A stretch of 42,408 nt of DNA, from the NCBI GenBank assembly GCA_012964435.1, contig DTTX01000047.1, positions 1,737 through 44,144 on the forward strand. The letters run 5' to 3'. Made by a program: the position numbers and the translations under genes. The DNA comes from Mesonia sp. Lineage in GTDB: Bacteria > Bacteroidota > Bacteroidia > Flavobacteriales > Flavobacteriaceae. This document shows positions 19,368-25,218 of the stretch, piece after piece; position 1 is the stretch's first letter, and the number at the start of each line of letters is the position of its first letter. A model generated the notes under the pieces. That model was given only the letters and a program-made list of their open reading frames with translations. It was not told the DNA's origin and made no database searches.

Positions 19368-19402
19368 TCGATATCAAGTTTACATATCTGCTACAACTTT
19401 TC

Positions 19403-19410
19403 TAAATTTG
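19403..19410 (+). promoter_or_regulatory. Candidate promoter -7 box for lnt
   Basis: TAAATTTG exactly matches TAnnTTTG and is 23 bases upstream of the lnt ATG at 19433. No clear -33 TTG is present. Confidence 0.45.
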
Positions 19411-19432
19411 AACTCTATTTTATTCAGCATTT

Positions 19433-21016
19433 ATGAAGAATTTTCTTTTAGCTCTTTCTAGTGGAATTTTATTAGCACTAGCTTGGCCTACTTACGGTTT
19501 TCCACTGCTTTTATTTTTTGCTTTTGTACCGTTTCTTTTAGCTGAATTTAATCTTAGACAAAAAGATCAAAAAGTAGGTATTAAGGTATTTTTATTTAGT
19601 TACCTCACTTTCTTTATTTGGAATATCATCACTACGAATTGGCTATATTTTTCGACTCCGTTCGGGATGTGGTTTGCAGTATTAGCGAATAGTTTATTAA
19701 TGACCTTGGTGTTTTTTATCTATCATAAAATTGCTAAAAAAGTCAATTTTACTGCCGGGGCTACATTTTTAGTTTCACTTTGGATGTGTTTTGAAAAAAT
19801 GCACCTTAACTGGGAGTTCTCCTGGCCTTGGTTGAACTTAGGAAATGGTTTTTCAGAATATATATCTTGGATCCAGTGGTACGAATACACCGGAACTTTT
19901 GGAGGTACGCTTTGGGTTTGGTTACTGAATTTGGTAATTTTTAAATCAGTCATACTTTACCTTCAGCATCGTGATAGAACCATAATTTTTAGAGGAATTT
20001 TTAAAAGCATTTTACTCATTATTATTCCTCTAAGTATTTCAATCTTCTTATTTTATACGGAAGAAGAAGTTTCAGAAGAAATGGAAGTAGTGATACTTCA
20101 GCCTAACATTAACCCATACACTGAAAAATATTACACGAGCGATCGGAATATTGGCGAATTATTGGTAAAACTTTCTAATGAAAAAATTACAGACTCTACA
20201 AAGCTTGTTTTAGCTCCGGAAACTGTATTTGCCGATGGAACGAAAATTGACCAATTTAAATATAGTAATGCTTTTTTCTACGGAAAAGAGATGAGCATTC
20301 AACATCCACAAACTAATTTTTTAGGAGGTATATCTTTTATAAAAGTAATTAATGATGAAAAAGAAACTACTCCTCAATCTAACTTTTATAAAGAAGGGCT
20401 TTGGTTTAACGATTATAATTCGGCCTTTTTAATTAATCAAACAAATCCGGAACAGATTTACCATAAGTCTAAATTGGTGGTGGGCGTAGAAAACTTCCCT
20501 TATCAATCTACACTTAAACCAATTTTAGGCGATGCGATGATCGATCTTGGAGGTACAGTTGCAATGAAAACTACACAAAGAGATCGAGAAGTTTTTGCGT
20601 TGAATTCCGGAGAAAAAGTAGCGCCGATCATTTGTTACGAATCGGTTTACGGCGATTATATAACCAAATATGTTAAAAACGGAGCGCAACTCTTAGCGAT
20701 TATCACAAATGATGCTTGGTGGGGCAATACGCAAGGCCACCAACAACATTTAAGTTATGCTAGATTACGCGCAATAGAAAACCGTAAAAATGTTGTAAGA
20801 AGTGCCAATACTGGAATTTCTGCAGTGATTAATTCAAAAGGTGAAATTCTAAATTCTTTGGGCTACGAAGAGCAAGGAAGTTTAAAAGTTAAAGTAAACC
20901 TGAATAATGAACTTACTTTTTATACTCAATACGGAGATTACCTTCCAAGAATCGCTCAGTTTTTAGCTCTATTTATTTTCCTTTTCGCCTTAACCCGCAG
21001 AAGAAATCAAGTTTAG
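19433..21016 (+). CDS. lnt: Apolipoprotein N-acyltransferase
   Basis: A 527-residue inner-membrane enzyme of normal family length. Hydrophobic helices occupy about 4-205, then a periplasmic nitrilase-type domain (about 215-495) and a final helix (about 505-522). The catalytic triad is visible: Glu263 in LAPETVFADG, Lys345 in YHKSKLVV and Cys401 in PIICYESVYGD. The ITNDAWWGNTQGHQQHLSYARLRAIENRKNVVRSANTG segment is also characteristic. Lnt transfers an acyl chain to the N-terminal cysteine of lipoproteins before outer-membrane sorting. The N-terminal basic residues and the ATG at 19433 fit the usual start. No terminator is visible downstream; the 415-base repeat-rich gap begins directly after the stop. 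Confidence 0.93.
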   Translation: MKNFLLALSSGILLALAWPTYGFPLLLFFAFVPFLLAEFNLRQKDQKVGIKVFLFSYLTFFIWNIITTNWLYFSTPFGMWFAVLANSLLMTLVFFIYHKIAKKVNFTAGATFLVSLWMCFEKMHLNWEFSWPWLNLGNGFSEYISWIQWYEYTGTFGGTLWVWLLNLVIFKSVILYLQHRDRTIIFRGIFKSILLIIIPLSISIFLFYTEEEVSEEMEVVILQPNINPYTEKYYTSDRNIGELLVKLSNEKITDSTKLVLAPETVFADGTKIDQFKYSNAFFYGKEMSIQHPQTNFLGGISFIKVINDEKETTPQSNFYKEGLWFNDYNSAFLINQTNPEQIYHKSKLVVGVENFPYQSTLKPILGDAMIDLGGTVAMKTTQRDREVFALNSGEKVAPIICYESVYGDYITKYVKNGAQLLAIITNDAWWGNTQGHQQHLSYARLRAIENRKNVVRSANTGISAVINSKGEILNSLGYEEQGSLKVKVNLNNELTFYTQYGDYLPRIAQFLALFIFLFALTRRRNQV

Positions 21017-21040
21017 TTTAAGAGTTAGTTTTGGGAGATG

Positions 21041-21086
21041 AGTTGACAGTTGACAGTTGACAGTTGACAGTTGACAGTTGACAGTT
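21041..21086. repeat. Perfect 7-bp tandem array, TTGACAG x6
   Basis: Six identical TTGACAG units occupy 21043-21084, with flanking partial units AG and TT. Read on the minus strand the unit is ACTGTCA, which fits the ACTGNNN pattern of the degenerate array at 21368. A perfect short tandem array of this kind can gain or lose units by slippage. Confidence 0.95.
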
Positions 21087-21156
21087 AAAAAAACAAAAAT
21101 TAATTTTCAGATTGAACTGAAACCTTTTTTAAGATACTATTTAGTGCGGAATGAAT

Positions 21157-21211
21157 TAACTTTTCAACTTGTACTTCAACTTCAACTTCTTGAAATTCTA
21201 AGCCTTTCGAA
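21157..21211. repeat. Composite repeat copy A: hexamers plus CTAAGCCTTTCGAAAG
   Basis: Six-base units in phase at 21163 (TTCAAC), 21169 (TTGTAC), 21175 and 21181 (TTCAAC), and 21187 (TTCTTG) lead to CTAAGCCTTTCGAAAG at 21198-21213. Copy B at 21310 has the same layout, with the same 12-base step from TTCTTG to TAAGCC. Confidence 0.8.
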
Positions 21212-21309
21212 AGATCACATCTTTACCATATACAATTTACAAAATATTGCATAGCGTATATCATATACTGTATCTGTTGACTGTGCTTTCAGTAGTTACC
21301 AAAAAATAT

Positions 21310-21366
21310 TTCATCTTCAATTTCAAGTTCAACTTCAATTTCTTGTCATACTAAGCCTGTCGAAGG
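21310..21366. repeat. Composite repeat copy B: hexamers plus CTAAGCCTGTCGAAGG
   Basis: Units TTCATC, TTCAAT, TTCAAG, TTCAAC, TTCAAT and TTCTTG lie in exact 6-base phase from 21310, followed by CTAAGCCTGTCGAAGG at 21351-21366. It is 153 bases from copy A and leads directly into the heptad array. Confidence 0.85.
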
Positions 21367-21367
21367 A

Positions 21368-21430
21368 ACTGCCTACTGACCACTGCAAACTGATTACTGT
21401 AAACCGAACACTGTCTACTAATCACTAATA
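21368..21430. repeat. Degenerate 7-bp array, ACTGNNN x9
   Basis: Nine consecutive units start exactly 7 bases apart at 21368, 21375, 21382, 21389, 21396, 21403, 21410, 21417 and 21424. The first four bases are ACTG in six units, ACCG in one and ACTA in two, while the last three vary freely (CCT, ACC, CAA, ATT, TAA, AAC, TCT, ATC, ATA). The array ends at the stop codon of the minus-strand sugar transferase gene (21432-21434). Confidence 0.9.
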
Positions 21431-21431
21431 C

Positions 21432-22823
21432 CTACTGTCCTCTAAAGAAAATAACTGTACTTAAGGTTTTTAAGAAAATTCGAAGATCAAGAAACAATCC
21501 TCTCTTTTTAATATAATATAAATCGTATTGAAGTTTATGCAAACTATCCTCAATAGTTGAACCATAACTAATGCTCACTTGCGCCCAACCTGTTAAACCT
21601 GGTTTAATTACATGGCGAATTTCGTAGAACGGTATCTCCTTTGCTAATTCTTCAACAAAAACAGGACGCTCCGGTCTCGGACCAATCACACTCATATCTC
21701 CTTTCAACACATTATAAAACTGCGGAATTTCATCGAGACGTGTTTTTCTTAAAAACTTTCCGAACTTGGTGATTCGTGTATCATTTGCTTGCGCCCATTG
21801 TGCTCCTTTAGCTTCTGCATTGGTAACCATCGTACGCAGTTTTACAATTTTAAAATTTTCACCGTGCCTGCCTACTCGAATCTGTGAATAAAATAGCGGA
21901 CCCCGATTCCCTATTAAATTACCAATAAATACAAAAGGTATAAGTAATGAACCTAACAAAATACCGATTATAGAAAATATGATATCGTAGAGTCTGTGAA
22001 AGAATAAATAAAGCTTATTGTGATTACTTCTACTAAAAGGGAAGTACTTATAGAAATCTTCTTTTAAGCGAGATACCGGAATCTTGCTATTTAACTCTTC
22101 ATAAACTTGATCGTATTCTCGAATTGAAAATCCGGCTTCTAACAGATCGATTAGAACATCATAAAGATTTTTTTCCATCCCGGAAGAATACCCCGTAGAA
22201 ACTACGATTTCTCCTACCTGATTTTTTTTAATAAACTCAATTAATTCTTCAACACTAATCTTCGGGATAGTTTTATTACCTTTTGAATTTTCAAGTTCTT
22301 TTGTATCTACATAACCCGCGACCATATAATTGGGATCGGCAGTCTGTAACTCATTAGCAATAATTTGGATATTAAATGAATCTCCCACAACTACCACCTT
22401 TTTATGGAAACGTGGTGAAGAAATAAATCTGATGTAAGCAAATCGCCATAAAATTAATGTACATAACAATGTAAAATAAAATACAACGATTTGAAATCTA
22501 TTGGCAGGCAATAGCGGAGTATAAAATGGTGTAAGTAAATAAAATAAAACCGTAACAGAACTTGCCAATACCAAGTTTTTAAAGACTTTTATATAATTAT
22601 TGGTTTTCTGAAGGTTATACAATTCGAATATTGTATTGAAAATCGTGAGGTAAATCGCTAGTACAATGATCCAAGCCCAATGAGCATTTGAAACCTGAAA
22701 ATAATCAAAATCTAAAAAGTGACTTACTAATTGTAATCCACCAAGTACAAAAACGACATCTAAGATTCGAAGCAAGACTTTTCGCTCTGATATTTCAAAG
22801 TGTATTTTTGTTTTTTTCGGCAT
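21432..22823 (-). CDS. Polyprenyl-phosphate sugar-1-phosphate transferase (WcaJ/WbaP type)
   Basis: A 463-residue initiating enzyme for surface polysaccharide. Four hydrophobic segments (about 18-36, 48-66, 83-100 and 110-130) precede a Rossmann-like CoA-binding domain (about 140-245, VVVVGDSFN). A reentrant helix (about 278-304) is followed by the bacterial sugar transferase domain with KLRTM (328-332), the Asp364-Glu365 catalytic pair in RLDEIPQFYNVLKGDMS, the GPRPER motif (381-386) and PGLTGWAQV. It transfers a sugar-1-phosphate, often glucose-1-phosphate, to undecaprenyl phosphate; the sugar cannot be read here. It is the last gene of the minus-strand cluster, 42 bases after the preceding glycosyltransferase, and its stop codon adjoins the ACTGNNN array. 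Confidence 0.93.
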   Translation of the reverse strand: MPKKTKIHFEISERKVLLRILDVVFVLGGLQLVSHFLDFDYFQVSNAHWAWIIVLAIYLTIFNTIFELYNLQKTNNYIKVFKNLVLASSVTVLFYLLTPFYTPLLPANRFQIVVFYFTLLCTLILWRFAYIRFISSPRFHKKVVVVGDSFNIQIIANELQTADPNYMVAGYVDTKELENSKGNKTIPKISVEELIEFIKKNQVGEIVVSTGYSSGMEKNLYDVLIDLLEAGFSIREYDQVYEELNSKIPVSRLKEDFYKYFPFSRSNHNKLYLFFHRLYDIIFSIIGILLGSLLIPFVFIGNLIGNRGPLFYSQIRVGRHGENFKIVKLRTMVTNAEAKGAQWAQANDTRITKFGKFLRKTRLDEIPQFYNVLKGDMSVIGPRPERPVFVEELAKEIPFYEIRHVIKPGLTGWAQVSISYGSTIEDSLHKLQYDLYYIKKRGLFLDLRIFLKTLSTVIFFRGQ

Positions 22824-22865
22824 TTTTATGAATAGATTTTAAAGTGCTAAGATATGGTTTTTCTT

Positions 22866-23882
22866 TTACTGTAAGACTTCATGCCATTTTTCTTTGACTA
22901 CTTCCCAATCAAATTTTTCTACTTTTTCTCGAGCATTAATACTCAATTGCTGAGCTAATTCAGGATGTTCTATTAATTGATTTATAGCTTTTATAGACGC
23001 CTCGCTATCATTCTTTGGAACAAGCAAACCATCTTTCTGGTCATCAATTAAATAAGGCAATCCACCTACATTGGTTGAGATCACCGGTAAACCTAAAGCC
23101 ATCGCTTCTATAACGCTTACCGGAGTATTATCGAAATTAGTAGTATTGATGAAAATATTATATTCTTTAGCTAAAGTTGTCCATTCTTCTTTTGAAAGTT
23201 TTCCGGTGAATTCTACAGACAAGTTTTTTTGTTTTGCTAAAGTTTTACATTTTGCTAAACTTCCATCTTTTTCTGGACCTACCATACAAAGTTTTGCATT
23301 AGGAAATTTTTCATTAATTTTTTCAAAAACTTCAATTGCTAAAGTTGGATTATAAATTTCAGCAAAAGACCGAACCCAAAGAAGCTTAGGAGTATCAACT
23401 TTTCTGTAAAAAAATGGATAATTCTCTATTTCTATAGTATTAGGTATAAATTTCAAGTTTTTGAATCCTTTTTCTTGAAATTCTGAAATTAAATAACCCG
23501 ACGGCGCCACGTTATATTTGGCATTAGAAAATAACTCTTTAGTTTTCGTTGGAGAATTTTTAAGCCTATTCGGCAAATTACCTCCGTGAAGTATACAGAT
23601 ATACGGTAATTTTAGATTTCTAGCCAATTTAGCTGAAAGGTAAGCATACCAAAAATTTGCAGTGCTATACGTATCAAGTAATAAAACATCTGATTTCTTA
23701 CTTTTTATAATTACTGTTGATAGCATATGTATAAGCCTTACTAATTTATTAGAAAAAGCAGATACAGAAACTACTTGATACCCCACTTGTTCGAGCTGCT
23801 TCCCTAAGGTTTCTACACCTGTTGAATTTCTACCTTTGTGGGAGAGCTTGTTTCCTAGATATAGTATTTTCTTTTTTACCAT
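22866..23882 (-). CDS. GT4-like glycosyltransferase
   Basis: A 338-residue GT-B fold enzyme without membrane segments. The N-terminal KKKILYLGNKLSHKGRNSTG is the usual first strand and glycine-rich loop, ILHGGNLPNRL marks the acceptor side, and TGKLSKEEW precedes the donor site. In the E-x7-E motif the first glutamate is aspartate (Asp251) and Glu259 is conserved, followed by AMALGLPVISTNVGG. Donor and acceptor sugars are unknown. It overlaps the end of the polymerase gene by 53 bases, much more than the 4-base overlaps elsewhere in the cluster; the conserved N-terminus argues that the start is real. Confidence 0.85.
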   Translation of the reverse strand: MVKKKILYLGNKLSHKGRNSTGVETLGKQLEQVGYQVVSVSAFSNKLVRLIHMLSTVIIKSKKSDVLLLDTYSTANFWYAYLSAKLARNLKLPYICILHGGNLPNRLKNSPTKTKELFSNAKYNVAPSGYLISEFQEKGFKNLKFIPNTIEIENYPFFYRKVDTPKLLWVRSFAEIYNPTLAIEVFEKINEKFPNAKLCMVGPEKDGSLAKCKTLAKQKNLSVEFTGKLSKEEWTTLAKEYNIFINTTNFDNTPVSVIEAMALGLPVISTNVGGLPYLIDDQKDGLLVPKNDSEASIKAINQLIEHPELAQQLSINAREKVEKFDWEVVKEKWHEVLQ

Positions 23883-25218
23883 TATTATATATTAAGCCTA
23901 ACAAGGATAGTCCGTAAATAAATCCGGGTGCTGCAATTCTCATAGAGGAATGCGAAACGGTTAGTAGCCAAAATAACAAGAGTGGGAAAAAAAATACATT
24001 TTTTCTTCCTTGAAATTTAGAAATCACAGGAGCAAAAAGAAGTATAATTAATGCTAAAAAACCAAAAACCCCGTGTTCAGAAAACATTCTACTAATTTCG
24101 TTATGAGTAGGTAAAGAAGTACCTAATATTTCTTCATGATAGCTTTTAACTTTCCCAATACCTATCCCAAAAATTGGACTATCTAAAAATGCATCATATT
24201 CCGCTAATAACAAATCTAATCTACCGGTAGTGATATCTTCTTTTTCTCGACCTAAGCTATCCTTATTTTCATAGCGATTACCTAGCATACCACCGGTTTG
24301 AATTAAAGTAAAAAACCAAATACCAAAGGTTACACCTAATGTCCCTAATAACTTTAGTGTAACTTTAGCTTTACTTTTTATCCCTGTGGTTGAGTAAATA
24401 ATTATTGTAAAAATACCTGCCATAAGTATAGCTACGAAAACTCCACCTCTTGAAAATGTAAGTAATGCCCGATAAGCCATTGCTACTAAAAAAAACATCA
24501 TAATAAAATGTATGAGTTTATTCTTATATGGAATTAAAAATCTTGCATATAGTATAAACACACCTAATCCGAGCATAGTAGAAACTTGATTTGGCCCGTA
24601 TCCTCCTGATAAAGAAGGATTTGACGCTGCTGTAATTGCCAGTTTATCTACTTGCCCAGAACCATATAGAAATACATATATGGTCATAGAGATTAAAGGA
24701 TATATCAAAGCATCTAATATCTTTAAAAAAGATTTGAAATCTAATTTCCTTCCATAACAGAAAATTCCAGCAAATGCCAACGACAAAGGACCACTCAGAT
24801 TAAACATAATAGTGGTTCTAAAATTCTCATCATATCCTAGGGTTTGCATAGCTACAAAAATACCGGGTATCAATAGTAGTATATAAATCGCATAAGGGTA
24901 GGCTTTCCTTTTAAAGCCTCTATAAAACATCCCAAATAATAAAAATAATATTACGAGGTATTTACCGGTTTCATAAAAAACTAAGGCTTTAGTCATTCTA
25001 AAAAAGACTTCGGCGCCTGTAATATATGCCGCTGCAAATAAAACTTCCTTTTCCTTGTCTTTTTTTCTAATTAACCTTACAACAAAATAGATAACTACGA
25101 CCGGCACGTAAAACATTACGATAGGTCTATATACATCGGCTAGAAAACCTAAACCTATATGAAATATAATCGCAAGTAATTGATTATTAACTTTTTTATT
25201 TTTCTTTTTAGCTACCAA
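23830..25218 (-). CDS. O-antigen ligase/polymerase-family membrane protein (Wzy or WaaL-like)
   Basis: A 462-residue polytopic membrane protein with about 11-12 hydrophobic helices. The O-antigen ligase signature region is present: ALLTFSRGGVFVAI, a periplasmic loop (about 310-375) with TGRLDLLLAEYDAFLDSPIFG and GIGIGKVKSYHEEI, then PTHNEISRMFSEHG. Such proteins either polymerise lipid-linked repeat units (Wzy) or ligate chains to a carrier (WaaL). In a cluster with an initiating transferase and many glycosyltransferases, Wzy is the more likely role, but sequence alone does not separate the two. It begins one base after the preceding glycosyltransferase gene. Its last 17 codons overlap the next gene by 53 bases. 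Confidence 0.82.
   Translation of the reverse strand: MVAKKKNKKVNNQLLAIIFHIGLGFLADVYRPIVMFYVPVVVIYFVVRLIRKKDKEKEVLFAAAYITGAEVFFRMTKALVFYETGKYLVILFLLFGMFYRGFKRKAYPYAIYILLLIPGIFVAMQTLGYDENFRTTIMFNLSGPLSLAFAGIFCYGRKLDFKSFLKILDALIYPLISMTIYVFLYGSGQVDKLAITAASNPSLSGGYGPNQVSTMLGLGVFILYARFLIPYKNKLIHFIMMFFLVAMAYRALLTFSRGGVFVAILMAGIFTIIIYSTTGIKSKAKVTLKLLGTLGVTFGIWFFTLIQTGGMLGNRYENKDSLGREKEDITTGRLDLLLAEYDAFLDSPIFGIGIGKVKSYHEEILGTSLPTHNEISRMFSEHGVFGFLALIILLFAPVISKFQGRKNVFFFPLLLFWLLTVSHSSMRIAAPGFIYGLSLLGLIYNNGKKENTISRKQALPQR

Follow-up and report, generated by a model that had tools for sequence, protein, structure and literature searches.

An ACTGNNN heptad array of Mesonia sp. is one arm of an inverted intergenic element

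Introduction

Why a tandem array should hold four bases of each unit nearly constant and let the other three differ in every unit is the question raised by a short intergenic stretch of Mesonia sp. (Flavobacteriaceae). Within a window of 42,408 nucleotides, the whole stretch of DNA analysed here and the frame for all positions given without a locus name, nine heptads occupy 21368-21430, with unit starts at 21368, 21375 and onward to 21424 in strict 7-base phase. In order, the units are ACTGCCT, ACTGACC, ACTGCAA, ACTGATT, ACTGTAA, ACCGAAC, ACTGTCT, ACTAATC and ACTAATA. The tetranucleotide reads ACCG once and ACTA twice, and the nine trinucleotide spacers are all distinct, confirming the pattern reported in an initial annotation of the locus: units exactly 7 bases apart, a near-constant ACTG and a different spacer each time. 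The STRR sequences of heterocystous cyanobacteria are tandem heptanucleotides, and REP/BIME elements are linked to the RAYT transposase.

Results

An inverted element flush with two genes

The nine heptads make up the right-hand arm of an inverted element between genes, with the anatomy <-(NNNCAGT)n, centre, (ACTGNNN)n->. Its left arm at 21041-21086 is a perfect AGTTGAC repeat with one unit sequence throughout, and the arms lie 282 bp apart in the order written here as -+, a minus-strand array followed by a plus-strand one. Each edge of the gap that separates the convergent genes thus carries an ACTG arm, both arms reading outward and facing stop codons (Table 1). The initial annotation, which took the array for one direct repeat, was incomplete on this point, the inverted partner and the gene-flush geometry having been missed. 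Searched with up to 3 mismatches in 249 genomes of the family, a set that included one other genus member (a genome other than G005, discussed below), the window array matched only itself.

Table 1. Features of the element and of comparable loci (window coordinates unless a locus is named)
Feature	Position	Strand	Remark
Right arm, nine ACTGNNN heptads	21368..21430	+	Last unit stops 1 base short of the convergent gene's stop codon (ORF 21432-22823(-))
Left arm, (AGTTGAC)6.6 on + = (ACTGTCA)n on -	21041..21086	-	Starts 24 bp past the upstream gene's stop codon
Centre between the arms	21087..21367	.	Two TTCAAN hexad tracts and two CTAAGCCTNTCGAA-type repeat copies
TTCAAC hexad tract, period 6	21163..21189	+	
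TTCAAN hexad tract, period 6, final base free	21308..21342	+	
Dispersed repeat copy (TTGTCATACTAAGCCTGTCGAAGGA)	21343..21367	+	Many short matches to query 1102-1168 in G000 and other genus genomes
Apolipoprotein N-acyltransferase-like gene (LNT_N, CN_hydrolase), upstream	19433..21016	+	ORF and domain match
Bacterial sugar transferase gene (Bac_transf), convergent	21432..22823	-	Adjoins glycosyltransferase and O-antigen ligase genes
Inverted heptad pairs, non-ACTG words	L077 3486-3557; L108 3660-3823; L137 5574-5659; L148 697-786; L187 1965-2058		

The same gap holds hexads of a related kind, since the TTCAAN tracts at 21163-21189 and 21308-21342 keep a 5-base word constant and leave one base free. 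TTCA every 6 bases headed the spaced-word scan of the own-genome sample, and the repeat (TTCAAN)n-TTGTCATNCTGAGCCTGTCGAAG at 21343-21367 has many short matches in G000, G005, G013 and G014.

Abundance and distribution of ACTG heptads

The window contains seven three-unit matches to ACTG at 7-base spacing, three in the array and four in the tract at 21047-21085, against none in 100 dinucleotide shuffles. The genome-wide count, which the initial annotation had named as a refuting condition, gave no refutation: in the own genome (3.05 million bases) the three-unit pattern matches 49 times with ACTG and 4 times with the reversed word, the latter pattern being one that perfect ACTGTCA arrays also match. 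With spacers of 0-14 bases allowed, ACTG triples numbered 80 and reversed-word triples 15, and 49 of the 80 had a spacing of exactly 3+3; a hand count of the other 31 found 11 with 3/10 steps (one damaged unit) and 6 with 3/2 steps (one base short). All three heterogeneous triples at 7 in the own-genome sample fall inside the window, with none in 313,447 further bases of that genome, and the arrays are therefore clustered rather than dense. A 7-base periodicity of all intergenic DNA was rejected for the own genome (lag 7 z 0.5, 16,401 bases), and lag-7 periodicity is present in 12 segments of the genus loci (z 6.5).

Four-unit matches occur in 9 of 16 genus genomes, the own genome included, and in 148 of 395 genomes of a phylum sample. 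In the window's family, the word was present in 22 of 41 genomes and the reversed word in 5 of 41, as counted by eye from the table, whereas in other families the reversed word sometimes outnumbers ACTG (e.g. G136, G307). A five-unit scan of GTDB contigs returned at least 120 stretches, and those listed include Cyanobacteria, Bacteroidota, Planctomycetes, Chloroflexi, Acidobacteria and Beggiatoaceae; in three Microcystis genomes the four-unit pattern matches 601, 1268 and 1163 times. Spacers in the own-genome arrays (L001-L038) carry G at 1 of 144 positions; in the genus set G makes up 1.8% of 114 positions, but 13-15% in wider sets, and the GTDB set comprises 53 distinct spacers.

Word constancy and spacer variety

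Words were compared in viral contigs by seven scans that applied the same rule, five words with free spacers, and the arrays were gathered over all 693 viral loci. Among the arrays listed, the first four spacers of ACTG at 7 comprised 2.22 kinds on average and were all distinct in 28 of 221, against means at 7 of 1.51 for GTCA, 1.92 for AGTC (the nearest to ACTG), 1.48 for ATGC, 1.56 for CGAT and 1.77 for CCTA, and of 1.29 for ACTG at 8. Rank tests over these listed arrays separated ACTG at 7 from all six controls (p 0.003 to 6e-15). Four distinct spacers were found in 0 of 86 arrays listed for ACTG at 8 and in 4 of 144 for GTCA at 7, which rules out plain decay of a perfect tandem repeat for the class; 63 of the 221 ACTG-at-7 arrays listed contain a single spacer only and are plain repeats. 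For the class, the earlier proposal that word and spacing are the conserved part thus holds.

A constant word, a free spacer and a fixed phase would also result if a putative protein recognised ACTG in DNA (or RNA), each heptad taking up one molecule and its spacer going unread, in which case the order of arms relative to genes would point to a boundary role. Binding by S1, Csp or CsrA has been proposed for TAACTGA in Beggiatoaceae (MacGregor 2015, PMC4679880). We regard such binding as unlikely, given the patchy presence of the pattern within the genus (9 of 16 genomes, own included) and, for an RNA motif, the gene ends, which would differ (ACUG before starts, CAGU after stops).

ACTG as the sole heptad word is ruled out as well, other words making heptads and inverted pairs and the reversed word being abundant in some genomes. 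Non-ACTG heptads are common close to ACTG arrays, and on own contig 26 near 1700 the word drifts while the 7-base phase persists. Among 34 adjacent pairs of heptads other than ACTG/CAGT, 7 were alike only when inverted (for example GAGATTG/CAATCTC and TAGAGGT/ACCTCTA), 2 only in direct orientation, 1 in both and 24 in neither. Of 61 skewed non-ACTG arrays, 43 have the C-rich strand pointing at the closer gene, and adjacent non-ACTG arrays are ordered -+ in 14 pairs, +- in 3, -- in 3 and ++ in 1. Inverted pairing and C-rich direction as features of heptads beyond ACTG are suggestive only, because most of the searched loci had been picked for ACTG.

Outward order of the arms and their fit to genes

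Over all fetched loci, array pairs at most 150 bp apart were ordered -+ in 125 cases and +- in 2, a contrast present both in the 693 viral loci (94:1) and in the 365 others (31:1). Neighbours within 800 bp in the first locus set gave 37 -+, 20 ++, 9 -- and 2 +-; the later full set gave 145 -+ (median gap 33), 55 ++, 48 +- (median gap 420) and 37 --, and a gene lies between the arms in 27 of the 48 +- pairs. The 145 -+ pairs are distributed between tandem (79), convergent (21) and divergent (16) genes, with 8 having a gene between the arms, 3 lying in an ORF and 18 at contig edges. Where both genes were called (116 pairs), the median distance is 15 bp from each gene.

Arrays taken one by one are oriented too, the 3' side being nearer to a gene in 151 of 205 ACTG arrays and in 92 of 135 from viral contigs; the ORF calls behind these counts are crude, and 36 in-ORF arrays are excluded from the first count, a possible bias of the start-side counts of which the -+ to +- comparison is independent. 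This 3'-side nearness was seen, among the words, only for ACTG and CCTA at 7. No CAGT tract lies within 400 bp on the 5' side of 138 of the 205 arrays, and the 3' side is nearer to a gene in 97 of these 138 against 54 of the 67 that have such a tract.

Among control pairs within 150 bp in the viral loci (L366 upward), CCTA gave 22 -+ and 0 +-, GTCA 0 -+ and 11 +-, AGTC 3 -+ and 13 +-, CGAT 2 -+ and 6 +-, and ACTG at 8 4 -+ and 0 +-, with no inverted pairs for ATGC. Pairs of CCTA, GTCA and AGTC thus also keep one order, so that ACTG is not the only word with this property and heptads more widely tend to have a fixed outward strand. The opposite order of GTCA and AGTC would fit ACTGACT-type arrays read from the other strand.

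The two arms of a pair are independent in length (rho -0.01, n=125), and spacer likeness within a pair is 0.36 against 0.42 for other pairs of the same locus. Covarying hairpin arms were rejected on this ground: an earlier difference of 0.60 against 0.39 had used arms of other loci, and the same-locus control erased it.

In the viral contigs L398, L404 and L422, arms occupy 4 of 4, 5 of 5 and 4 of 4 inner gaps longer than 20 bp between crude ORFs (13 of 13), whatever the gene orientation; one left arm lies inside a called ORF, and arms are present in 5 of 6 end gaps. In L460, some gaps are without arms. L398 encodes a tape-measure-like protein and L422 portal and head-protease-like proteins, and among annotated proteins the L422 portal is closest to those of Brevundimonas phages, at about 41% identity; the two L404 proteins tested had no clear match. 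Centres of at most 60 bp (79 listed) include some palindromes, and AAAGGCAAA/TTTGCCTTT recur in several viral contigs. Tracts like AAAGGCAAA or TTTGCCTTT are common to the centres of L398, L404, L415, L430, L437, L460 and L538.

Divergence between relatives

At three orthologous loci compared between the own genome and the related genome G005, ACTG changed at 4 of 80 positions and spacers at 22 of 60, with units registered by hand from alignments and 15 of the 22 spacer changes coming from a single locus. That locus (spacers 15 of 24, ACTG 2 of 32) lies in a 1,109-bp stretch that is 93.8% identical overall. The expectation of a conserved word beside a variable spacer was upheld here, yet at the window locus conservation between the two species extends equally to spacers and ACTG: over 7 of the 9 units (the two in indels excluded), spacers changed at 1 of 21 positions and ACTG at 0 of 26. 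The alignment of 21360-21439 has 72 identical bases out of 75, with the spacers counted in, and two indels of 5 and 8 bp; in the left arm the number of repeats is not the same in the two species. The window locus reflects either selection at every position or recent exchange.

Ten G005 stretches were fetched. Five are 93-96% identical over long lengths to own array loci (L312, L314, L315, L317, L320), the window region is 78-79% identical, and the others match the compared own loci only weakly or over shorter lengths. As a separate observation, window positions 19394-23934 stand at 78-79% identity to G005 (third codon positions of the gene region 0.526), and because the five other loci stand at 93-96%, the comparison suggests that the Lnt/polysaccharide region may have been replaced in one lineage.

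Arrays gain and lose 7-bp units. Locus C41 has 4 units in one relative and 8 in the other, and Microcystis arrays differ by 7, 14 bp or more, one being unchanged and some sites holding a different element. At one Microcystis site compared in three genomes, the array is (GTTATCA)n, mostly (GTTACCA)n, or missing, so that whole words are replaced; the other edge of that gap carries ACCCYAC, AATTCAT or neither.

Such turnover, the swapped words at an orthologous site and the spacer-biased changes at the single locus above could all come from functionless heptad repeats made by replication slippage anchored on ACTG microhomology, units without ACTG being no longer copied and template switching bringing in spacers with word and phase kept. 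Heptads are reported to be the most abundant intergenic tandem DNA repeats in many prokaryotes (PMC6344855). This account is possible though doubtful, and it ranks close after the favoured reading given below. Slippage copies spacers, and saturated spacers beside intact words therefore require an outside source; functionless slippage also leaves the 125:2 outward order and the close fit to gene ends unaccounted for, gives no account of why ACTG at 7 differs from other words, and is at odds with the conserved window locus.

C-rich outward arms set head to head resemble fused telomere repeats, and the arms might instead be the ends of small mobile or end-healing events, grown by expansion. The C-rich direction (43 of 61) and the pair order of non-ACTG arrays (-+ 14, +- 3, -- 3, ++ 1) agree with such an origin, as does one Microcystis stretch in which two dispersed elements, about 195 and 145 bp long, are flanked by outward ACTG arms (L339 4877-5071 and 6088-6232). 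In the sister genome G484, however, the arms are kept where the 195-bp element does not align and about 175 bp of other sequence stands instead. With arm lengths and spacers independent and no target duplication or enzyme tied to the arms, we consider this origin quite improbable.

Predicted folding and regulatory sites

RNA folds were predicted for 94 close -+ elements. In them, the right arm pairs with 1403 of 1644 core bases of the left arm (85%) and with 514 of 951 spacer bases (54%). Redrawn spacers had little effect on the predicted fold (p 0.08), and flipping both arms changed its predicted stability slightly (-0.431 vs -0.410 kcal/mol per nt, p 0.012). Word and phase thus suffice for a hairpin with the spacers left free, which is the pattern required; the arm order needs another cause. 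The window arms pair in the predicted fold, yet its stability does not stand out (z -1.27; 8 of 100 shuffles did as well). Rfam 15 gave no matches for window 20900-21600 at E up to 1 or for L398, L404 and L422 at gathering score, and a simple consensus scan for an intrinsic terminator (GC stem and T run) found none in the window element.

Relation to described heptad repeats

TAACTGA direct repeats are described from Beggiatoaceae, Cyanobacteria and some Bacteroidetes (MacGregor 2015, PMC4679880), mostly in intergenic positions very near codons; of 170 sets, 147 point to a start codon and 12 to a stop, some are interrupted by a related 7-mer, and one inverted repeat occurs in the 170. TAACTGA is the ACTG heptad ACTGATA in another frame, and both are near and oriented to genes. 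It is, however, a single fixed heptamer whose related heptamers are rarely direct repeats (PMC4679880), whereas the ACTG class has a free spacer and common close inverted pairs; its sets mostly face start codons, whereas the window arms face stop codons and the class reads toward the nearer gene. The ACTGATA unit is absent from the window array.

In Xanthomonas, GGGAATC/GGGANTN heptads are found as closely spaced inverted pairs (70 and 75 cases), lie nearer to the 5' neighbouring gene (28 vs 160 nt) and vary in length between species (Rehm 2015, PMC4692102). They share with the ACTG class a 7-bp period, conserved and variable positions and close inverted pairs, but their word is a G-tract studied for quadruplex formation (PMC4692102), whereas ACTG has no G-tract and the genus spacers are G-poor; the window array contains no G-tract able to form a quadruplex. 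Calothrix, according to the same paper, has three tandem heptanucleotides.

Heptameric long simple sequence repeats are 7-bp tandem repeats, often intergenic, widespread and of unclear function (Mrazek 2007, as cited in PMC4679880 and PMC4692102; SPADE, PMC6344855). The window array likewise has 7-bp tandem units beyond chance; variation in unit number was seen at other loci of the class, the window right arm having indels of 5 and 8 bp. Such repeats are defined by one repeated unit, as in the left arm at 21041-21086; the nine units of the right arm are all different, and it is therefore not filed as an ordinary heptamer repeat. The available portions of PMC4679880, PMC4692102 and PMC6344855 contain no constant-word, free-spacer class and no outward order.

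The ACTG arrays are a variant of known heptad repeats, because TAACTGA and GGGANTN have similar habits, being intergenic, near codons, oriented, in part degenerate and, in Xanthomonas, paired in inversion. The initial annotation's statement that no such element had been described was too strong, these relatives being already in PMC4679880 and PMC4692102. A literature search over titles and abstract openings, with few subscription papers covered, found no description of an ACTG held constant beside a free spacer, nor of an outward order across words. What is added here is a constant-word, free-spacer heptad class set in close outward inverted pairs against genes, in bacteria and viral contigs.

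Discussion

The class is genuine and fairly specific, it belongs to a widespread inverted element, and the support for that anatomy is strong. For the mechanism the support is at most moderate, and we tentatively favour a hairpin that punctuates genes and grows by slippage of heptads. Whichever side transcription comes from, the element would fold back into an irregular hairpin made of 4-bp stems, each between an ACTG and a CAGT of the opposite arm, with facing spacers as internal loops, an arrangement that would hold word and 7-base phase and leave the spacer free. Heptad slippage would provide the units, and template switching between arrays would shuffle the spacers. The most likely role would be gene-boundary punctuation, a two-way hairpin marking, stabilising or processing mRNA ends. 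The outward order, the closeness to genes, the predicted pairing, the excess of spacer over ACTG changes, unit turnover and the inverted pairs of other words speak for this reading. Against it, pairing would leave the sign of the arm order unaccounted for, the arms are independent, 138 of 205 arrays lack a 5' CAGT tract and the order is not ACTG-only; at the window itself the fold is unremarkable, terminator-like sites are absent and the spacers are conserved.

A broader proposal, unlikely in our estimate, is that outward ACTGNNN arms are an orientation-coded punctuation common to several phyla and phages and served by one conserved machinery, acting on DNA or RNA. If this were true, a shared punctuation mark would help to account for the seven-base period that is so common between genes. 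If heptads of differing words share this geometry and ACTG keeps its free spacer, their role becomes testable in copy-rich strains such as Microcystis, where copies number in the hundreds.
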